A DNA stretch of 64,000 nt from an uncultured Oscillibacter sp. (GCA_950097265.1 CATNDJ010000010.1:1-64000); one strand, 5' to 3'. Positions 9,283 through 22,228 are shown, numbered from the stretch's first letter. Numbers and translations: made by a program. The notes: generated by a model not told the origin, from the letters alone.

Positions 9283-9987
9283 ATGGAAAAGCTGAATCTT
9301 ATGGACCTGCTGAAAGGCAACCCCTATCCCGGCCGGGGCATCGTCCTGGGAAAGAGCGCGGACGGAAAACAGGCCGTGGCCGTGTACTTCATCATGGGCC
9401 GGAGCGAAAATTCCCGGAACCGGGTGTTTGTCCCCACGGAAGACGGTATCCGCACGGAGGCTCACGACCCTGCCAAGATGACGGACCCCAGCTTGATCAT
9501 CTACCACCCGGTGCGCAAAGTCGGACAGGGCCTGATCGTCACCAACGGCGACCAGACGGACACCGTCCGGGACTACCTGCTGGAGGGCCGGACCTTCGCC
9601 GAGGCGCTTAGACAGCGCACCTTTGAGCCCGACGGGCCCAACTGGACCCCCCGCATCTCCGGCCTGCTGAGCCCCGACGGCAGCTTCCAGCTCTCCATCC
9701 TTAAGAGCGCCGAGGGAAATCCGGATTGCTGCTGCCGGTACTTCTACCACTACGACGCGCCCCTGGCGGGGGAGGGCCGCTTTCTCCACACCTACATGGG
9801 GGACGGGAATCCCCTGCCCTCCTTCGCCGGGGACCCGGAGCGGGTCGGCCTGGACGCGGAGAACCCGGAGTCCCTGGCGGACCAGGTCTGGGAGGCCCTG
9901 CACCCCGAGAACAAGGTGTCCCTCTTCGTCCGGTTCGTGGACCTGGGAGACGGGAGCCACAGGGATGTGATTCGGAATCGGTACTGA
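9283..9987 (+). CDS. purO: IMP cyclohydrolase, archaeal PurO type
   Basis: NPYPGRGIVLGKSADGKQAVAVYFIMGRSENSRNRVF resembles the PurO-type IMP cyclohydrolase family. Confidence 0.82.
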   Translation: MEKLNLMDLLKGNPYPGRGIVLGKSADGKQAVAVYFIMGRSENSRNRVFVPTEDGIRTEAHDPAKMTDPSLIIYHPVRKVGQGLIVTNGDQTDTVRDYLLEGRTFAEALRQRTFEPDGPNWTPRISGLLSPDGSFQLSILKSAEGNPDCCCRYFYHYDAPLAGEGRFLHTYMGDGNPLPSFAGDPERVGLDAENPESLADQVWEALHPENKVSLFVRFVDLGDGSHRDVIRNRY

Positions 9988-9996
9988 GACCAGGAA

Positions 9997-10027
9997 GCCG
10001 TCTCCCGGCCGGGAGGCGGCTTTTTTT
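9997..10027 (+). terminator. Intrinsic terminator of the pyr/purO gene cluster
   Basis: gccgtctccc-ggcc-gggaggcggc followed by ttttttt. Confidence 0.88.
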
Positions 10028-10115: not shown

Positions 10116-13100
10116 ATGGAACAGCTCTGCCGGAACCTGACCCGCGCCTTTCAAGAGGAGGCGTTTCTGCAAAAGCTCTCCCGTCCCGAGGCGGAGGACC
10201 GCTTCGGCGGCTTGGACTGGTCCGCCCTGACGGCTCCCCTGCTGCCCATCCGGGAGAGGATTTCCGCCCTCCGGGCCCTGGAGGCGTTCCGCCCCGTTTT
10301 GGAGGGCGTTGCCCAAGAGCCGGAGAAGGGCTGGGCCCTCTGTGCCTACCGGACGGCGGTTTCCCTCCTGTACCCCCAGGCGGACCCGGGCTATCCCCCC
10401 CCGCAGCGGGATGGGGCGCTGTGCTTCCTCCACTTCCTCCGGACCCTCTACGACGCGGAACGGGAGGCCCTGCCCTTCGACTTCTGGCTGGACTTCGCCT
10501 TCTGCACGGAGGAGGAATTGAAGACCAGCGCCGTGGCCGAGGACTACCGCCTCTTCCTCCGCCGCTGGCGGGAGGAGTACGTGTACGAGCTCCTGCGCCT
10601 GGGCCGGGAAGTGACTCCCTTCCGCACCTGTGAGCACATCGCCGGGGTCCACCACGTGTCCATGACGGTCTCCCGGGCCTTCAAGGCCGGGGGCGGGAAG
10701 ACCGACCTGGGGCTCATCTCCGCCGCCGCCGCGGGACACGACATCGGGAAGTTCGGCTGTAAGCCCGGGGAGCGGGTGCCCTACCTTCACTACTATTACA
10801 CGGACCAGTGGTTCTCCTGGCGGGGCCTGGGGACCCTGGGCCGGGTGGCCGCCAACCACTCCGTCTGGGATTTGGAGCTGGAGAACCTGTCCTCCGAGTC
10901 CCTGGTGCTGGTCTACGCGGACTTCCGGGTGAAGCAGGAGCGCCTTCCCGGCGGCGGGGAGGAGGCCCGGCTCTTCTCCCTGGAGGACGCCTTTGACGTG
11001 ATTCTCTCCAAGCTGGACAACGTGGACGCCGCCAAGCGCAAGCGCTACCGCTACGTCTACGTGAAGCTCCAGGACTTCGAGGGCTATCTCAAGACCTTCG
11101 GCGTGGACGTGACGCTGAAAACCGCCGGGGGGCCCCCTCTGCCTCGGAAGGACCCCTCCCTGATGGACGAGGACGAGGTAGTCCTGGGCCTCCGCCGGAC
11201 GGCGGTGGACCACAACATCCGCCTGATGCACCGGCTGAGCCGGGAGCGGCTCTTCGTGGCCACATTGGAAGCGGCCCGGGGGGAGAAGGACCCGGGCCGC
11301 ATCCGGGCCTATGTCTCCGTCTTCCGGGAGTACTTCACCTACTGGACCGTGGAGCAGAAGGAGCAGACCCTGGAGTTTCTCTACGAGCTGCTGCTTCAGC
11401 CCGACGGGGACATCCGCCGTCAGGCGGCGGGGCTCATGGGGCGCATCCTCTCCAAGTTCCTCTCGGGCTACAAAAAGGAGCTGCCCCAGGGCACGGCCCC
11501 CAGCTCCCAGGAGGACCGGCCCTTCGAGCTCTGGGCGGAATACCTGGAAAAGCTCATTCACCCGGACCGCCGCCTGACTCCCCGGCAGATCAGCATGATC
11601 CGCTACCAGGCCAAGACGGCGGCGGACTCCCTGCTGGGCGGCTGCGACCACGAGGACTTCCCCCGCTTTGCCGAGCTCCTCTTCCGCCACTACCAGGACC
11701 CCGCCGCCGAAGACGCGGAGGGGGCCTTCGCCCTGCTGAACACGGCGCTGAACCTCCCCATGGAGCGGATAAGTCCCCGGGACGCCGCCCGGCTGGCGGA
11801 TTACGCCGTCTGGTGGCTGGAACGGGGCGAGGCCCCCCAGAAGGCCGCCGCCATGCGTCTGGCCCGCCGCCTGCTCCCCGTCCTGGGAGCGGACTCCCCC
11901 GAGCGGGAGGCCGTGAAGCGGGCCGTGGAGACCGCCGGCTGCACTTCCTCCACGCCCCTGCTGTACCTTCAGTCCCGGCTGGGGGCCCTCCTGGGCCTGG
12001 ACGTATCCGGCTTCCGCGCCCTGCTGGACCAGGGGGAGGCCGCCGCCGGCGTGTTCCTGGACAATCTGAAGACCGCCACCCCCTGGGTGCTGAAGGCCGT
12101 GGGCGTGGAGTACCTGCTGGACCAGGCCCGGCGGGGGGAGGGGGAGGCCGCCCTGCACATCGCCACTCACTTCTCCAATTTGATGAAGGTCAGCGAAAAC
12201 GTGGTGGTCCGCCGCCTGGCGGGCAGCGCCCTGCTGGACGTGGCCCCCATGCTGACGCCCCCCCGGCGCAACGAGGTGGCCGTGGAGCTCTGCGAGGCCC
12301 TGGAGACCGGCCAGTCGGAGATCTCCCAGTATATCCCCCCCTACCTGGGGCAGTTCCTCCTGTGGCTCACCCCCCGGGAGCTGGACGAAATTTTAGACGA
12401 GCTTCTGCGCTTCCTGTCCTCCTCCAGCCCCAGCGTGGCGGCGGGAGCCCTGGGCACCATAGGGTCCCTGCTGGAGCACTACCGGGTCTACGGCAGGCGC
12501 TTCCACGAGCCGGTGGAGGCCCTGGAGCGCCGCCGCCGGCGCATGGCGGGATTGCTCCTCAAGGGCCTGGCCTCCTGCATGGAGCCCGTACGGCAGGAGG
12601 CCCTGCGGGTTTTGGGCGAGGGGCTCTTTGCCTCGCCGTTTTTGAGCTACGCCGACAAGACCGGACTTTTCACTTTGGTTGCCAAAAAGCTCCTCTTCCT
12701 CATCGGCGAACAGCCGGGGGGCGAGCTGACCTTCTTCCACACCGCCGCCGCCCTCTCCCACATCTACCGCTTCGCCGTGAAGCACCGCATTGAAAGCGGG
12801 CCCTTCCGCTTTGAGTGGCGGGACAAGGCCGCCGCCTTCTTCCCCGGCACCTTCGATCCCTTCTCCCTCTCTCACAAGGGCATCGTCACCGCCATCCGGG
12901 ATTTGGGCATGGAGGTGTATCTGGCCGTGGACGAGTTCTCCTGGTCCAAGAAGGCCCAGCCCTCCCTGATCCGGCGGCAGATCGTCAGCATGTCCGTGGC
13001 CGACGAGTTCGGCGTGTACCTCTTCCCCCACGACATCCCCGTGAACCTGGCCACCCCCGACGACCTCCGCCGTCTGCGGCAGGTCTTCGCGGGGCGGGAG

Positions 13101-14900
13101 CTCTACCTGGTGGTGGGGTCCGACGTGGTGGCCGGGGCCTCCTCCTACAGGGCGGCGCCCAGCCCGGGCTCCGTCCACTCCCTGAACCACATCGTGTTCC
13201 GCCGCTCCAGCGACGCGGAGGGCCGGGAGATTGAGGCGGACCTCTCCTGCATCACCGGCCGGGTCATTCAGCTTCAGCTCCCCACCCACCTGGAGGACAT
13301 CAGCTCCACCCGCATCCGGGAGAACATCGACCTGGGCCGGGACGTGTCCAACCTGGTGGACCCCACGGTCCAGGACCTGATCTACCGGAACAGCCTCTAC
13401 CTCCGGGAGCCCCAGTACAAGCAGTTGGTCCGGGCCAGCCTCCTGGACTTCGACCGCGCCGCCTCCCCCTCCCCGGCCCTGTGGGCGGAGTTGGAGGAGG
13501 CCCTGGGCCCCCTGCCGCCCCCGGATCCCCGGGACAGCGTGTTCCTCCTCCGGGCCGCGGGCCCCCGGCCCCGGATCCTGGGCTGCCTCGCCACCCGGGT
13601 GGTCAACTCCGGGGAGCTGTACAACGCCTTCGGCAGTGAGGAGCTGGCGAACCTGGTCCGCACCCGGACGGCGGGGCGCATCCAGCTCCTGACGCTGCTC
13701 CGGGCCGTCAAGACCCCCGGGGGGAACTACGACGCGGCCCAGCTCCTTTTGACCGAGGTGCTGACCCGGGCGGCGGAGGACGACTGCGGCTACGCCGTCT
13801 GGTGGGGCCCTGCGGAACAGGGGGAGCTGGACATGCTCCGCCGCCAGGGCTTCGTCCCCGCAGAGCCGGAAACCCCGCAGTCCCTGCTGCTGGTGGACAT
13901 GCGGTCCCCGGCGGTGCTGGTGCAGAACATCCCCACCACCTTGAAGGAGCCCTTCGCCTCGGACCGGCAGGTGCTCTCCGCCATGGGGGCGGCCCATCTC
14001 CGCCTCCAGGAGGCGGTGTGCGGCCTCTACCCCGGCACCCTGGTGCTGTCCCTCAACGCCGAGGTCATCTACCACCGCCTGGTCCGGAAGCTGACGGAGG
14101 AAAACGGCGTCCCCGCCGAGCCCCAGACCCCCCGGGTCCTGGGACCCAAAATGTGCGTCCCCTTCGGCAAGATCCTCCGGGGCAACGCCGTGCCCAACAC
14201 CGTGACGAAAACCATCCACACGGACAAGGTCTTCGCCCCGGACCTCCACTCCTTTACCATTGCCGCCTTCCCGGGCTACGCCCCCCTGGAGAGTCAGATT
14301 CGGACCATCCGGTCCTTCCGCCGCCCCGTCATGCTGGTGGACGACCTGCTGCACACCGGCAACCGGATGAACGTCCTGGACCCCCTCTTCCGGCGGGAGG
14401 AACTGGACATCGACCGCTGCGTGGTGGGCCTCCTCTCCGGCCGGGGCCGGGACCTGATGGCCGCCCGGGGGCGGAAGGTGGACAGCGTCTACTTCGTCCC
14501 GGACCTCCGGGCCTGGTTCGTGGAGTCCACCATGTACCCCTTCATCGGCGGGGACGCCGTGGACAAGGGCATGGTCTCCGTTCCGGGGCTGACCCCGGCG
14601 GTGAACCTGATCCTGCCCTACGCCTTCCCCCGGTTCTACAGCCGGTGCGGCCGGGAGGCCGTGTTCCGCTTCTCCCGGACCTGCATCGAAAACAGCCGGG
14701 ACATTCTGCTGGCCCTGGAGCGGGCCTACCGGGAGCGCTTCTCCCGGAACCTGACGCTCTCCCGGCTCAGCGAGGCGGTCATCCTCCCCCTGAGCCCCGA
14801 CAAGGGCTCCGCCCTCCGGTACGACCCCAACCTCTCCGCCTCCGTGTGCCTGGAGAGCGACCTCAGGCAGCTGGACCGGATGCGGGAGCTGCTGAAATGA
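10116..14900 (+). CDS. 1594-aa multidomain protein: HD phosphohydrolase-like region, long alpha-helical/HEAT-like region, cytidylyltransferase/NadD-like nucleotidyltransferase, C-terminal phosphoribosyltransferase-like domain
   Basis: Likely ATG at 10116 (track ORF begins upstream at 9726); AAAGHDIGKFGCK (HD), FFPGTFDPFSLSHKG...EDISSTRIREN (nucleotidyltransferase), RPVMLVDDLLHTGNRM (PRPP-loop-like). Confidence 0.8.
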   Translation: MEQLCRNLTRAFQEEAFLQKLSRPEAEDRFGGLDWSALTAPLLPIRERISALRALEAFRPVLEGVAQEPEKGWALCAYRTAVSLLYPQADPGYPPPQRDGALCFLHFLRTLYDAEREALPFDFWLDFAFCTEEELKTSAVAEDYRLFLRRWREEYVYELLRLGREVTPFRTCEHIAGVHHVSMTVSRAFKAGGGKTDLGLISAAAAGHDIGKFGCKPGERVPYLHYYYTDQWFSWRGLGTLGRVAANHSVWDLELENLSSESLVLVYADFRVKQERLPGGGEEARLFSLEDAFDVILSKLDNVDAAKRKRYRYVYVKLQDFEGYLKTFGVDVTLKTAGGPPLPRKDPSLMDEDEVVLGLRRTAVDHNIRLMHRLSRERLFVATLEAARGEKDPGRIRAYVSVFREYFTYWTVEQKEQTLEFLYELLLQPDGDIRRQAAGLMGRILSKFLSGYKKELPQGTAPSSQEDRPFELWAEYLEKLIHPDRRLTPRQISMIRYQAKTAADSLLGGCDHEDFPRFAELLFRHYQDPAAEDAEGAFALLNTALNLPMERISPRDAARLADYAVWWLERGEAPQKAAAMRLARRLLPVLGADSPEREAVKRAVETAGCTSSTPLLYLQSRLGALLGLDVSGFRALLDQGEAAAGVFLDNLKTATPWVLKAVGVEYLLDQARRGEGEAALHIATHFSNLMKVSENVVVRRLAGSALLDVAPMLTPPRRNEVAVELCEALETGQSEISQYIPPYLGQFLLWLTPRELDEILDELLRFLSSSSPSVAAGALGTIGSLLEHYRVYGRRFHEPVEALERRRRRMAGLLLKGLASCMEPVRQEALRVLGEGLFASPFLSYADKTGLFTLVAKKLLFLIGEQPGGELTFFHTAAALSHIYRFAVKHRIESGPFRFEWRDKAAAFFPGTFDPFSLSHKGIVTAIRDLGMEVYLAVDEFSWSKKAQPSLIRRQIVSMSVADEFGVYLFPHDIPVNLATPDDLRRLRQVFAGRELYLVVGSDVVAGASSYRAAPSPGSVHSLNHIVFRRSSDAEGREIEADLSCITGRVIQLQLPTHLEDISSTRIRENIDLGRDVSNLVDPTVQDLIYRNSLYLREPQYKQLVRASLLDFDRAASPSPALWAELEEALGPLPPPDPRDSVFLLRAAGPRPRILGCLATRVVNSGELYNAFGSEELANLVRTRTAGRIQLLTLLRAVKTPGGNYDAAQLLLTEVLTRAAEDDCGYAVWWGPAEQGELDMLRRQGFVPAEPETPQSLLLVDMRSPAVLVQNIPTTLKEPFASDRQVLSAMGAAHLRLQEAVCGLYPGTLVLSLNAEVIYHRLVRKLTEENGVPAEPQTPRVLGPKMCVPFGKILRGNAVPNTVTKTIHTDKVFAPDLHSFTIAAFPGYAPLESQIRTIRSFRRPVMLVDDLLHTGNRMNVLDPLFRREELDIDRCVVGLLSGRGRDLMAARGRKVDSVYFVPDLRAWFVESTMYPFIGGDAVDKGMVSVPGLTPAVNLILPYAFPRFYSRCGREAVFRFSRTCIENSRDILLALERAYRERFSRNLTLSRLSEAVILPLSPDKGSALRYDPNLSASVCLESDLRQLDRMRELLK

Positions 14901-14911
14901 CGGGAGATACT

Positions 14912-16078
14912 ATGTGTATTACAAAACATTTTCTATACAAAACGGAGCATGACCCCGCCCTGGGCCCCGCCGTCTGGCGGGTGACGGACCCCCGGCAGCT
15001 TTCCGGGGATCCGGACGTCCGCCGCCTGGACCCCCGGCGGCTGGGGGAGGCCCCGGCCCTGACGGAGGGCCGGAGGTCCGCCCTGGCGGAGGGGCGGCTC
15101 ACCGCCGTCAACGTTCTCCACCCCCGGCACGAGGCGGCCCTGGACTTCGTGACCCCCGGTCCCGCGAAAAAGCGGGTCCACCTCCTGGCCCTGGGGGACG
15201 TGGGGGGAACCCTGCTCCTGGCCCTGAAGCTGCTGGGCGGGGATGTGATTTCCTCCATCGGCGTCTGCGATTTGAACGAGAAGGCCGTGGCCCGGTGGAC
15301 GGCGGAGGCGGGCCAGATCGCCTGGCCCTGGGACTACGGCGCCCTGCCCGAGGCGGAGCCCGTGGGACCGGGGGAGCTCTTTGACTGCGACGTATTCATC
15401 TTCGCCGCCACCAGGGCCGTTCCCCCCGTGGGCAGCGCCGTGGAGGACGTGCGCATGGCCCAGCTGGAGGCCAACCGCCCCCTGGCGGAGTCCTTCGCCC
15501 GGCGGGCCCGGGAGGCGGGCTTTCGGGGGCTCTTCATCGTCCTCAGCGATCCGGTGGATCCCCTGTGCCGGGCGGTCTGGCGGGCCTCCAACCTGGGGCC
15601 GGACGGGGAGCTGGACTACCTCGGCCTCCTGCCTGAACAGGTCCAGGGCTTCGGCCTGGGGGTGATGAACGCCCGGGCGGCGTACTTCGCCAGGAGGGAC
15701 CCCCGCTTTGCCTCCTTCCTCACCGAGGGGCGGACCTTCGGCCCCCACGGAAAGGGGCTCGTGGCCGCCAACTCCATCGCGCATTACGACGACGGTCTCT
15801 CCCGGGAGCTGACCCGCCTGACCCTAGAGGCCAACCTGCGGATACGGGACCTGGGTTTTAAGCCGTATGTTGCCCCCGCCGTGTCCTCCGGGGCCATGCA
15901 GCTGCTGCTGGCCCTCCGGGGCCAATGGCACTGCGGGTCCGTGCCCTTGGGGGGCGTGTGGTTCGGGTGCAAAAACCGCTTCACCCCCTGGGGGCTGGAG
16001 GTGGAGACCCTGGAGCTGCCGGACGCGCTCTTCGCCCGCCTCCGGGAGACGGAGCGGACCCTCCACGAAATTTCCTGA
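14912..16078 (+). CDS. Lactate/malate dehydrogenase-like Rossmann-fold protein
   Basis: VHLLALGDVGGTLLLALKLLGGDVISSIGVCDLNEK; DVFIFAATRAVPPVG; FIVLSDPVDPLCRAVW; alternative start at 14897 overlapping the previous stop. Confidence 0.72.
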   Translation: MCITKHFLYKTEHDPALGPAVWRVTDPRQLSGDPDVRRLDPRRLGEAPALTEGRRSALAEGRLTAVNVLHPRHEAALDFVTPGPAKKRVHLLALGDVGGTLLLALKLLGGDVISSIGVCDLNEKAVARWTAEAGQIAWPWDYGALPEAEPVGPGELFDCDVFIFAATRAVPPVGSAVEDVRMAQLEANRPLAESFARRAREAGFRGLFIVLSDPVDPLCRAVWRASNLGPDGELDYLGLLPEQVQGFGLGVMNARAAYFARRDPRFASFLTEGRTFGPHGKGLVAANSIAHYDDGLSRELTRLTLEANLRIRDLGFKPYVAPAVSSGAMQLLLALRGQWHCGSVPLGGVWFGCKNRFTPWGLEVETLELPDALFARLRETERTLHEIS

Positions 16079-16093
16079 CGGCAGGAGGACGCT

Positions 16094-17140
16094 ATGGAAC
16101 GGGAATTGACTCTGGTCACGGGCCCCGCCCCCCTGACGGGGCGGCTGGGGCAGACTTTGAACGCCGCCCTGGCGGGGCGGGCGTTCCAGCTTTACCAGGA
16201 GGGCCGGCCCTTGGAAAACCGGCGGCTGCTCTTCGCTTTCTCCCTGCCGGAAAACGGGGTCAATCCGGACCTGTACGGCCTCCTGTCCCATTTGCGGGAC
16301 CATCCCGGCTGCCTCCGGGGCAGCGTGGGGGGCGCGGTTATCGACGGGGCCGGGGACCTGTACACCAAGGCGGCGGGGCGGGACCTCATCCTGGCCGCCC
16401 ATCTGGCGGGCTGCGCCTTTCCGGGGCGGCCCTTGGCGGAGGCCACGGGAAACCTCCAAAACTTCTCCGTCCAGGCCCGGAACGCAGGCTGTGATTTGCA
16501 GGCGGCCTACCGCCTGGCGGTGAAGGACCTGGCGGGGCGGGTGCTGGACTTCGCCCCTCCCCGGCGGCGGCGGCCCAGGGTGCTGGCCCTCCACGCCTCC
16601 AGCCGGGCCACCTCCAACACCCTGGACCTCTGGGGCCGGGTCCGGGCGCGGATCGAGGGGGCCTGCGAGGTCCGGGAGATCGGCCTTCGGAACGGGACGC
16701 TGGAGGACTGCGCCGGGTGCCCTTACACCACCTGCCTCCACTTCGGGGAGCGGGGGGGCTGCTTTTACGGCGGCGTCATGGTCCAGGAGGTCTTTCCCGC
16801 CCTCCGGGAGGCGGACGCGGTGGTCCTCCTCTGCCCCAACTACAACGACGCCCTCTCCGCCAACCTCACCGCCGCCGTGAACCGCCTGACGGCCCTCTAC
16901 CGCGCCGCCTCCTTCGAGGACAAGGCGGTCTTCGCCATCGTGGTCTCCGGCTACTCCGGGGGGGACATCGTGGCCGGCCAGGTGGTCTCCGCCCTGTGCG
17001 TGAACAAGGGCTTCCGGCTTCCCCCCGGGTCCATCCTCATGGAGACCGCCAACGACGCCGGGGCGGCCCTCCGCCTCCCCGGTGTGGAGGAGCGGCTGGA
17101 GCGCTTCGCGGAGAATCTGCTGGGGGAGCTGAAACTGTAA
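16094..17140 (+). CDS. NAD(P)H-dependent FMN reductase/flavodoxin-like protein with an extra N-terminal region
   Basis: RVLALHASSRATSNTLDLWGRV...DCAGCPYTTCLHFGERGGCFYGG...ADAVVLLCPNYNDALSANLTAAVNRL; RBS aggagg. Confidence 0.75.
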   Translation: MERELTLVTGPAPLTGRLGQTLNAALAGRAFQLYQEGRPLENRRLLFAFSLPENGVNPDLYGLLSHLRDHPGCLRGSVGGAVIDGAGDLYTKAAGRDLILAAHLAGCAFPGRPLAEATGNLQNFSVQARNAGCDLQAAYRLAVKDLAGRVLDFAPPRRRRPRVLALHASSRATSNTLDLWGRVRARIEGACEVREIGLRNGTLEDCAGCPYTTCLHFGERGGCFYGGVMVQEVFPALREADAVVLLCPNYNDALSANLTAAVNRLTALYRAASFEDKAVFAIVVSGYSGGDIVAGQVVSALCVNKGFRLPPGSILMETANDAGAALRLPGVEERLERFAENLLGELKL

Positions 17141-17227
17141 CCAGATTTTGAACTCTGCCGGGGGAGCCTTGCGGTTTTCTCCGGGGCGTGGTAAGATGGG
17201 GATAACTCATTGAAAAGGAGCGCCCCT

Positions 17228-18650: not shown

Positions 18651-18695
18651 TCTGGTGCTATGATATCCACAGCAAGCAATGAGAGGGGGCGCGGC

Positions 18696-20426
18696 ATGGC
18701 AATCATCGGCATCGATCTGGGCACCACCAACTCCCTGGCCGCCGTCTGGCGGAACGGAAAAAGCGAGCTCATCCCCAACGCCGCCGGGGAGGTTCTGACG
18801 CCCAGCGTGGTCAGCGTGGACGGGGACGGCAGCGTCCTGGTGGGCCGGGCGGCCCGGGACCGCCTCATTTCCCATCCGGAGCGCACCGCCGCCCGGTTCA
18901 AGCGCTTCATGGGCACGGACAAGACCTACGCCCTGGGCGGCCGGACCTTCACGCCGGAGGACCTGTCCTCCCTGGTGCTCCGCTCCCTCCGGGAGGACGC
19001 GGAGGCCTACCTGGGAGAGCCGGTGGACGAGGCGGTGGTCAGCGTTCCCGCCTACTTCGCCGAGGCCCAGCGGGCCGCCACGAAGCGGGCCGCGTCTCTC
19101 GCGGGCCTGAAGGTGGAGCGGCTGGTAAACGAGCCCTCCGCCGCCGCGGTGGCCGGGCACATCGGCCAGGGGGAGGAAGACAAGGTCTGCCTGGTCTTCG
19201 ACCTGGGGGGCGGCACCCTGGACGTGTCCCTGGTGGAGCGCTTCGGAAACGTGGTCAGCGTCACCGCCGTCAGCGGGGACAACCGGCTGGGGGGCGCGGA
19301 CTTCGACCTGGCCGCCGCCCGGGGCTTCTGCGAGGACTGCGGGCTGGACTTCGAGAGCCTGGCCCCCCGGCAGCGGGAACTGCTGATCCGCCAGGCGGAG
19401 ACCTGCAAAATGGCCCTGACGAACCAGGAGCTGGTCATTATGTCCGTGGACGACGGGACCATCTCCGCCGCCCTGACCCTCTCCAACGAGTGGCTGATCC
19501 GCAAGTGCGGGGCCCTCTTCCGGCGGATGGCGGCCCCCATCCAGCGGGTCTTCCTGGACAGCGGCGTCTCTCCCCAGGAGCTGGACGACCTGGTGATGGT
19601 GGGCGGGTCCAGCCATATGCCCGCCGTCCGGCGCTACATCGCCCGGACGCTTCACAAGGAGCCCGCCAAGGACAGCCGCCCCGACACCGCCGTGGCCCTG
19701 GGGGCCGGAATCTGCGCCGGGATGAAGGCCCGGGCGGGGGACCTCCGGGAGCTGGTGCTCACCGACGTGTGCCCCTTCACCCTGGGGGTGGCCCGGTACA
19801 ACGAGAGCGAGCGGGACCGGGACCTGATGAGCCCCATTATCGAGCGCAACAGCGTCCTGCCCTCCAGCAAGATGGGCGTTTACTACACCGTTCGGGACGG
19901 CCAGGACAAGGTGGACATTCTCATCTACCAGGGGGAAAACCGCTACTGCGCGGACAACACCCTGCTGGGAAAGCTCCAGCTCCCCGTGCCTCCCGCCCCC
20001 CGGGGGAGGCAGTCGGTGCGGGTCCGCTTTACCTACGACATCAACGGACTTCTGGAGGTGGAGGCGGTCAACGAAACCGGGCGGGCGGAACGCCTGGTTC
20101 TCCAGAACAAGGACATGACCCCCCAGGAGGCGGAGCGCCGCCTGAAGGAGCTGGCCCGCCTGAAGCTCCACCCCCGGGAGCAGGAGGAATACCGGGCCAT
20201 GACGGCCCGGGGCGAGCGGCTGTACGCCGTCACCGTGGGCGGCCTCCGGGAGCAAGTGGGAGCCCTGCTGGATTGGTATCAGAGGGTCCTCTCCACCCAG
20301 GAGGCCCTGAAAATCGCCAAGGCCACGAGGCGCCTGGACCGCTTCTTCGACCAGGCGGAGGCCTATCTGGGGGACGCGGCCCTGCCGCCGCCGGAGCCCC
20401 TGGGCGATGAGGAGGAGGACCTGTGA
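18696..20426 (+). CDS. hscC: Hsp70 family chaperone, HscC type
   Basis: IIGIDLGTTNSLAAVWRNGKSELIPNAAGEVLTPSVVSVD; VISVPAYF-like VVSVPAYFAEAQRAATKRAA; LVFDLGGGTLDVSLVE; resembles HscC more than DnaK. Confidence 0.88.
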   Translation: MAIIGIDLGTTNSLAAVWRNGKSELIPNAAGEVLTPSVVSVDGDGSVLVGRAARDRLISHPERTAARFKRFMGTDKTYALGGRTFTPEDLSSLVLRSLREDAEAYLGEPVDEAVVSVPAYFAEAQRAATKRAASLAGLKVERLVNEPSAAAVAGHIGQGEEDKVCLVFDLGGGTLDVSLVERFGNVVSVTAVSGDNRLGGADFDLAAARGFCEDCGLDFESLAPRQRELLIRQAETCKMALTNQELVIMSVDDGTISAALTLSNEWLIRKCGALFRRMAAPIQRVFLDSGVSPQELDDLVMVGGSSHMPAVRRYIARTLHKEPAKDSRPDTAVALGAGICAGMKARAGDLRELVLTDVCPFTLGVARYNESERDRDLMSPIIERNSVLPSSKMGVYYTVRDGQDKVDILIYQGENRYCADNTLLGKLQLPVPPAPRGRQSVRVRFTYDINGLLEVEAVNETGRAERLVLQNKDMTPQEAERRLKELARLKLHPREQEEYRAMTARGERLYAVTVGGLREQVGALLDWYQRVLSTQEALKIAKATRRLDRFFDQAEAYLGDAALPPPEPLGDEEEDL

Positions 20427-22228
20427 GCTGGCCCTGGAACGAGCTGGGACTCTCCGGCCCGGCGGGCCTGCCGGAAATCCGGAAAGCCTACGCCGAAAGG
20501 CTGAAGGCCGCCCACCCGGAGGAGGACCCGGAGGGCTTCCAGCGCCTCCACGCCGCCTATCAGGAGGCCAGCCGCTATGCCCGCCGGAGCGCCCGGCAGA
20601 CCGCTGAGGAGCCCGCCTTGGAAACGGAGGCCCCGCCGGAGGAGGAAGCGGCGGCCGGGCGGGACTATGGCGGGCCTCCGGAGGAAGAAGCGAAGGCCCC
20701 GGAGCCCCAGGACCCCCAGTGGGACTACGACGAACTCCTGGAAGCGGAGGCCGGGCCCGCCGGAGCGCCGGAAGCGCCCCCGGCCCCGGAGTGGGACTTC
20801 GAGCGCCTCTTCGCCGAGGGGGAAGAGGAAGCCCAAGAGGCCCGCCGCCGGAGGCTGGAGGACCTGCGCCACAAGAACTGGGCCCGCTACGCCCCTCAGG
20901 CCCGGCTGCGGCGGGAGGGGGAGGACGCCTGGCCCGCCGTGCTGGCGGCGGTCCGGGCCCTGGAGCTTCTGGAGCGCTCCGGCGCGCCGCCGTCTCAGTG
21001 GCGGCGGTTTCTGGACAGCTCCGTCTTTTTGAGCGTCCGGGCCGACATGGACTTCGTCTTTTTGCTGGAGGACTTTCTGGAGCAGCACCCGGACCTGTCC
21101 CCGGAAATCCGCCGGGCCGTCTTCAACGCCTACGAGGCCCAGAACGCCTCCAAGTACCCGGCCTACAAGCCCCTCTACCGCCTCCTGGGCGTCAAGCGGG
21201 AGGACACGCGGCGGGCCGCCAGGGCGAAAAGCGGCTGGCGGAACGCCTGGCGGAGCTATCCCCCCTGGCGGAAAGCCGCCGTCGTAGTCTGCTTCACCAT
21301 CCTGGCGGTGTTCCTCTCCATCGGCATCGGCGTCAACCTGCAAACCGCCCGGGAGGACCGCGCCGCCCGGCGAGAGGCCGAACACTGGACGGAGACGGCC
21401 CCCCAGTGGCTGGAGGAGGACTTCGGCGAGCCCTTCGTCCACGCCGTGTCCGGGGATATCTTCGCCCCGGCGGCGGACCCGGACCTGTACTTCCACGCCT
21501 CCCCCCGGGGGGAGCGGTCGGAGGGCTGGCCGGGCTATCAGACCAATTACCCCCACATCCTGGTGAGGCGGGCCCTGGAGGACTTCGCCCGGGAGCGGGA
21601 GCTGGACCTGGACCTTGCCTCCTACTCCCACGAGATCGGGGACGCGCCGGGGGCCTACCTCCTGAACCTCCCCCTGCTGGGGGCGGAGGAGGACGTGGCC
21701 GCCCTGGGGGCCTTGCTGGAGGACCTCTCCCGCCAGGACTGGTATCAGGTTCCCCTGGTTTCCCCCCAGGGCGAGGCGGAAATTTTGGCTCGGGAGCCGG
21801 TGAAGTACACGGTGTTCCTGTGCCACCGGGGCCTGGCCTTCTACGAAGCCCCGTCCCAGGAGGGCTTTGACACGGAGGAGGCCCTGGGGCTCTACGCCCA
21901 GGCGGGCCCCGCCCTCTGCCGCTATATCTTGGAGCAGAGCGGCCTGGCGGATGAGCACCTGGGAGAGGGAACCTACGTCCTCCAGGACCGGGAGCCGGTG
22001 GAGCTGGGAGACGGGACCTTCTTTCAGGTTCACGGCGTGGACAAGGACACCGGGGAACTCAAGGTGCAGTATCTCCTGGCCTCCGGCGGCGGGACGCTCT
22101 TCTGCGTCCCCCGGGAGAAGATGGAGGGAATCCGCTCCGTCATTGATCTGTACCGGGGCACGCCCCGGACTCTGGAGCTGAACAAGCTGGGCCTCGTCAT
22201 GGTGACGGACCAGGTGCCCGGCGAATAA
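20423..22228 (+). CDS. J-domain-like protein with a transmembrane segment, putative HscC partner
   Basis: GTG start overlapping the hscC stop; N-terminus LPEIRKAYAERLKAAHPEEDPEGFQRLHAAYQEA; TM region AAVVVCFTILAVFLSIGIGV. Confidence 0.72.
   Translation: MSWPWNELGLSGPAGLPEIRKAYAERLKAAHPEEDPEGFQRLHAAYQEASRYARRSARQTAEEPALETEAPPEEEAAAGRDYGGPPEEEAKAPEPQDPQWDYDELLEAEAGPAGAPEAPPAPEWDFERLFAEGEEEAQEARRRRLEDLRHKNWARYAPQARLRREGEDAWPAVLAAVRALELLERSGAPPSQWRRFLDSSVFLSVRADMDFVFLLEDFLEQHPDLSPEIRRAVFNAYEAQNASKYPAYKPLYRLLGVKREDTRRAARAKSGWRNAWRSYPPWRKAAVVVCFTILAVFLSIGIGVNLQTAREDRAARREAEHWTETAPQWLEEDFGEPFVHAVSGDIFAPAADPDLYFHASPRGERSEGWPGYQTNYPHILVRRALEDFARERELDLDLASYSHEIGDAPGAYLLNLPLLGAEEDVAALGALLEDLSRQDWYQVPLVSPQGEAEILAREPVKYTVFLCHRGLAFYEAPSQEGFDTEEALGLYAQAGPALCRYILEQSGLADEHLGEGTYVLQDREPVELGDGTFFQVHGVDKDTGELKVQYLLASGGGTLFCVPREKMEGIRSVIDLYRGTPRTLELNKLGLVMVTDQVPGE

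Follow-up and report, generated by a model that had tools for sequence, protein, structure and literature searches.

An HD–HEAT–NadD-like–GNAT-like–PRT-like megaprotein and two redox-type partners form a co-inherited gene triplet that may synthesize and edit a nucleotide

The window, by which we mean the whole 64,000-nucleotide stretch of DNA analyzed here, derives from contig C10 of an Oscillibacter-like MAG (G000; assembly 2.49 Mb, 91.5% complete). It carries three consecutive genes on one strand, flanked on either side by a terminator-like stem:

10007–10021, + strand: terminator-like stem with a T run, upstream border, 3′ of the IMP cyclohydrolase gene
10116–14900, + strand: megaprotein gene, 1594 aa (HD / HEAT solenoid / NadD-like nucleotidyltransferase / GNAT-like / PRT-like)
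10533–11105, + strand: HD domain, residues ~140–330
11106–12815, + strand: HEAT/ARM-type helical solenoid, residues ~331–900
12816–13427, + strand: NadD-like nucleotidyltransferase domain, residues ~901–1104, motifs GTFDPFSLSHK and ISSTRIR
13428–13931, + strand: GNAT-like domain, residues ~1105–1272
13932–14675, + strand: type I PRT-like domain, residues ~1273–1520, PRPP-loop-like LVDDLLHTGNR
14912–16078, + strand: LDH-like gene, 388 aa, an LDH/MDH-superfamily protein with its own N-terminal extension
16094–17140, + strand: FMN-reductase-like gene, 348 aa, two-domain
17159–17171, + strand: terminator-like stem, downstream border, 3′ of the FMN-reductase-like gene

The open frame of the megaprotein opens at 9726, and its homologues support the ATG at 10116 as the start; the ATG of the LDH-like gene (14912) is preceded by GGGAG, and a further in-frame ATG at 14897 overlaps the megaprotein stop. 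Gaps of 11 nt (megaprotein to LDH-like) and 15 nt (LDH-like to FMN-like) separate the genes, matching exactly the coordinates, shared strand and spacings of about 11–15 nt given in a preliminary description of the locus. No terminator-like sites were found on the + strand between the three genes, such sites being in any case frequent by chance. All three ORFs are under purifying selection and intact in dozens of species (dN/dS against close relatives: megaprotein ~0.16, LDH-like 0.23–0.31, FMN-like 0.28–0.30). Upstream of the triplet, window positions 9283–9987 code for an archaeal-type IMP cyclohydrolase-like protein (PF07826), which is found near the triplet in close relatives only. Downstream, positions 18693–22228 code for an Hsp70-type protein scoring far under the cut-offs of the DnaK models, with a 601-aa neighbor that shows a weak DnaJ match; an Hsp70 gene is also near the triplet in two other loci.

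Structure prediction for the megaprotein with AlphaFold2 gave models with a mean pLDDT of 91.1 (residues 1–903) and 88.5 (residues 893–1594). The HD domain is matched by Pfam HD in 23/31 members (best 1.8e-6), and the alignment and motif table show the invariant residues H174, H208-D209, K212, H225, H248, and D269. The region that follows, previously described simply as long and helical, proved to be a HEAT/ARM solenoid: its model is all-helical and resembles HEAT/ARM proteins, and Pfam HEAT is recovered in 16/22 members. The nucleotidyltransferase domain matches Pfam CTP_transf_like in 61/61 members and NadD structures in Foldseek searches (TM(target) up to 0.79). Copies linked to the partner genes keep the H-HD-H-H-D and GTFDPFxxxHK/ISSTxIR motifs; the first nucleotidyltransferase motif, GTFDPF(S/T)xx(H)K, varies as SLSH, TLSH, SLGH, and TLGH. 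Beyond it lies a domain whose modeled topology fits GNAT, with weak Pfam GNAT matches (best 0.01–0.017) and no recognizable acetyl-CoA loop. The C-terminal PRT-like domain is detected by Pfam Pribosyltran in 25/35 members (best 4.6e-5) and matches xanthine PRT in Foldseek (5.1e-5, TM(target) 0.47); against PDB sequences, the GNAT and PRT profiles gave weak matches only. The earlier domain calls were therefore right in outline, with HD, nucleotidyltransferase, and PRT confirmed by Pfam and Foldseek, and had overlooked the GNAT-like domain between the last two. Mean pairwise identity by domain is 57% for HD, 55% for the nucleotidyltransferase, 45% for PRT, 36% for HEAT, and 25% for the GNAT-like domain, the least conserved of all. 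The acidic pair of the PRPP loop is present in most members; however, its second acid is lost in two and the pair is altered in two others, and on account of these substitutions catalysis by the PRT-like domain appears doubtful.

The LDH-like protein shows Pfam Ldh_1_N in 26/26 members and aligns along a canonical LDH of the same genus with an hhalign probability of 97.4. Three of the four residues of the LDH catalytic set are kept (equivalents of R109, R171, and H195), the fourth, D168, being an invariant Met, and the equivalent of N140 (NPVD) is Asp throughout (SDPVD). Accordingly, the proposal of an NAD-linked dehydrogenase stands for fold and profile, which are those of the LDH superfamily, but not for the catalytic D168. 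From these residues, 2-hydroxy-acid-like chemistry on another substrate and binding without turnover are both possible. The FMN-like protein contains a full flavodoxin-fold FMN_red domain (5.7e-19 in the window copy; 27/27 members), with a PF03358 score of 68.6 against a gathering threshold of 24 bits, and the alignment reveals in this domain a conserved Cys motif, CxGCxYxxC…C. Searches with its N-terminal domain (residues 1–158) detected no relatives; the idea that this is a duplicated flavodoxin is not supported, the two halves of the protein giving an hhalign probability of 7%.

We scanned one genome per species for relatives of the megaprotein, found 200, and kept 80 loci. All three genes are present in 59 of these, in the same order and strand in 58 of the 59, and several of the loci without the full triplet are cut by contig ends. 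Profile searches of 52 genomes recovered the megaprotein in 32; of these, 30 also carry the LDH-like and FMN-like genes, and both genes are missing from all 20 genomes without the megaprotein. The remaining two of the 32 are genome G027 and a 56%-complete draft in which a contig end cuts the copy. In four genomes the triplet genes lie on different contigs, yet all are in the same genome. Among divergent copies (down to ~29% identity), the order megaprotein > LDH-like > FMN-like is retained in 20/25 loci from Clostridia and a second class. Full-length copies were found in 8/399 genomes sampled across the phylum, in 21/245 of the class of the window and in 18/251 of the second class; Acetoanaerobium noterae carries one. 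About five changes are needed to place the triplet-negative genomes on an RpoB tree of the genus, so that the whole triplet has probably been lost several times, although strongly supported branches by themselves force a single change. Pairwise distances among the three proteins correlate at 0.78–0.84, a figure inflated by shared ancestry. The triplet is hence a real, old unit, whose genes are gained and lost together. The linkage originally proposed from gene spacing is borne out very strongly by the conserved order, the all-or-none co-occurrence, and the probable whole-unit losses, and across the kept loci finding all three genes together is the common condition rather than the rare one.

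This unit does not belong to a larger conserved operon: the genes flanking it vary from clade to clade, and the one recurrent neighbor, in a few clades, is a gene for GDH, accompanied in some cases by a GlnL-type two-component system. GDH is downstream of the triplet in five loci and in one further genome, and in three of the five loci a histidine kinase and a YcbB/GlnL-type response regulator lie between the triplet and GDH. In one genome (G710; L198, 7918–13236), the megaprotein and LDH-like genes are separated by an insertion of ammonium-transporter and glutamate-synthase-type genes. Since GDH is close in just 3 of the 35 triplet genomes searched, we treat this neighborhood as a lead and not as evidence of function. 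Other settings were also considered. A link to sporulation was set aside, as Spo0A scores over its cut-off in clostridial genomes that carry the triplet as well as in ones that do not, and fails to exceed it in three triplet genomes. A mobile or phage element was likewise rejected: there was no phage match, and the sole "plasmid" match was to a chromosome-sized 2.6-Mb record. The record in question (L197; NZ_CP154629.1), a 2.63-Mb circular sequence of A. noterae, bears a plasmid label and four annotated features; its size and content make it look chromosomal. Anti-phage defense was rejected as well, the proteins of the window giving no PADLOC match up to E 0.01.

Two genomes each possess an extra megaprotein copy without LDH or FMN genes nearby (L201, 3827–8722; L204, 2197–7113). 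These are the sole copies seen with clearly degraded nucleotidyltransferase motifs (ASPAQIR; FYTDIFDPFTTVHK and ILSCETK), and their HD and PRT motifs are intact. As both unlinked paralogues lost the former and kept the latter, these two cases, few as they are, tie nucleotidyl transfer more closely than the HD or PRT function to having the partners present. A gene for a divergent APH-type kinase (phosphotransferase) adjoins both copies.

We then considered how the megaprotein relates to NadD. NadD models are its best sequence matches, and this is what favors reading it as an ordinary NadD or NAD-salvage protein with two unrelated neighbors; yet all these matches fall under the curated cut-offs (31–59 bits against 112.45 for the curated NadD model; 38.9 against 150 for NF000840; TIGR00482 aligning end to end with the nucleotidyltransferase domain, again below cut-off), a separate NadD above the curated cut-off exists in 20/20 triplet genomes tested, and the neighbors are co-inherited. 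As stated, that reading is refuted, and we regard any form of it as scarcely credible; for the same 20/20 genomes we reject a role as the housekeeping NadD. The linked copies do carry the (T/H)xGH and ISSTxIR signature motifs of NadD. In the NaMN-binding segment, the NadD of the same genome reads SYTADTLARL and the megaprotein PVNLATPDDLRRL, that is, without SYTxDTL, and as this canonical segment is absent the product need not resemble NAD. On the HD side, the metal ligands found in YqeK are all invariant in the megaprotein (H174, H208-D209, H225, H248, and D269), but no YqeK model was among the NCBIfam matches up to E 0.1, and the domain was recognized by the general Pfam HD model only. The genome of the window also codes for a canonical NadD fused to a C-terminal, YqeK-like HD domain (399 aa; L172, 1997–3196, contig C8), and NadD with the HD hydrolase YqeK is an established synthesis and proofreading pair (PMC9426524). 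By analogy, the megaprotein family may act like such a NadD/HD pair; given the separate true NadD, the sub-cut-off scores, and the replaced SYTxDTL, it is a member of neither family.

On this basis we tentatively favor, as plausible, a reading in which the three gene products together build and edit an NAD-like (di)nucleotide with a pyrophosphate link. PRPP would be bound by the PRT-like domain, which would make, or sense, a ribotide; the NadD-like domain would couple this ribotide to a nucleotide supplied by an NTP. At the N-terminus, the HD domain could then hydrolyze the product, or erroneous products, much as YqeK acts alongside NadD, with the HEAT solenoid keeping the two active sites within one chain; the LDH-like and flavin-reductase-like proteins might carry out redox chemistry on or with the product, or make use of such chemistry. 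Several observations argue for this: conservation is highest in the HD and nucleotidyltransferase domains, whose motifs are kept in linked copies; clearly degraded nucleotidyltransferase motifs are confined to the unlinked L201 and L204, and the partners co-occur in all-or-none fashion; and there is the proofreading precedent (PMC9426524), together with the NadD-HD fusion in the same genome. A redox step also fits the FMN_red domain and the NAD-type Rossmann domain of the partners. Against it stand the variation of the PRPP loop and the absence of SYTxDTL; the scheme also gives the GNAT-like domain no part to play, and the GDH and GlnL-type neighbors of some clades would fit a regulatory role equally well. 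A broader proposition, that the triplet serves to make, edit, and use a cofactor or signal of nucleotide type not yet known in Bacillota, is possible if somewhat doubtful. As for the nucleotide or cofactor salvage or signaling route first suggested for these genes, the linkage and domains partly support a linked nucleotide/cofactor system, and nothing recommends salvage over synthesis, editing, or repair.

The regulatory role would be that of a bifunctional synthetase/hydrolase of a nucleotide signal, following the logic of RelA/SpoT or GlnD and possibly linked to nitrogen status: the nucleotidyltransferase would make the signal and the HD domain destroy it, with the PRT-like and GNAT-like domains sensing metabolites and the two partners being redox-responsive. 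The pairing of a transferase with an opposing hydrolase along one solenoid-bearing chain, the degenerate look of the putative sensory PRT-like and GNAT-like domains, and the presence downstream, in a few clades, of GDH, joined in three loci by the two-component system of GlnL (YcbB) type, are all consistent with this, and we count in its favor that NAD synthesis is linked to nitrogen signaling elsewhere (PMC7196632). Nevertheless, GDH is close in a minority of triplet genomes only, and the FMN_red and LDH-like domains keep more catalytic-type residues than pure sensors would need; we consider such a signaling function rather unlikely.

The NadD/YqeK proofreading precedent, the two redox proteins, and the separate canonical NadD could also be read as pointing to repair of damaged NAD(P)(H) or flavin nucleotides, in which the HD domain would cleave, the NadD-like and PRT-like domains rebuild, and the redox proteins convert aberrant reduced forms. 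Such damage is universal, whereas the distribution of the triplet is patchy (as in the phylum-wide sample above), and its nucleotidyltransferase is without the substrate segment of NadD; we consider repair to be distinctly unlikely. Less probable still is the modification of a macromolecule: the HEAT solenoid would hold a protein or RNA for nucleotidylation, which the HD domain would reverse. Proteins or nucleic acids are the usual ligands of HEAT/ARM solenoids, and the presence of this fold in the megaprotein is what speaks for the proposal, but the transferase domain fits the fold of the small-molecule NadD family over its whole length.

The very long retention of a large multi-domain enzyme alongside two redox partners, all three being kept or lost together, provides good evidence that a pathway not yet described exists in these organisms; our search of the open-access full-text literature found no published description or experimental characterization of the triplet. 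Its hosts include common gut anaerobes such as Oscillibacter, Flavonifractor, Pseudoflavonifractor, Fournierella, and others, as well as members of the second class. The degraded paralogues and the triplet-negative sister species offer natural comparisons for a search for the product by metabolomics.

Compared with known systems, the LDH-like protein has in common with L-lactate/malate dehydrogenases the Rossmann domain, the acidic residue after β-2, R109, R171, and H195; it differs in the D168-to-Met and N140-to-Asp replacements, its own N-terminal extension, and scores far under the LDH cut-offs. With the NADPH-dependent FMN reductases (PF03358), the FMN-like protein shares the full FMN_red domain, over the gathering score, to which it adds the 158-residue N-terminal domain and the Cys motif, and its co-occurrence ties it to the megaprotein. 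Type I PRTs, such as xanthine PRT, have the same fold and a comparable PRPP-loop-like motif; in the megaprotein, by contrast, the PRT is embedded in a large chain, with the loop LVDDLLHxGxR and a variable acidic pair. In RelA/SpoT and GlnD, a single chain unites a transferase, the HD hydrolase that opposes it, and regulatory domains. The megaprotein has this logic alone in common with them and is not a member: its transferase has an unrelated, NadD/CTP_transf fold, with no match to RelA/SpoT or pol-beta-type transferase models, and its accessory domains are different. A further parallel is the NadD-YqeK pair or fusion, in which a NaMN adenylyltransferase accompanies an HD diphosphatase/Ap4A hydrolase; shared with it is the combination, within one polypeptide, of a nucleotidyltransferase of NadD fold with an HD hydrolase. 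Unlike in that pair, the HD domain of the megaprotein is N-terminal, ~570 residues of HEAT solenoid intervene, and GNAT-like and PRT-like domains follow; moreover, it is without SYTxDTL, resides beside a true NadD in the same genome, and has two dedicated partner genes. If our favored reading is correct, the triplet would extend the NadD-YqeK idea of synthesis and editing in one chain to a different substrate.
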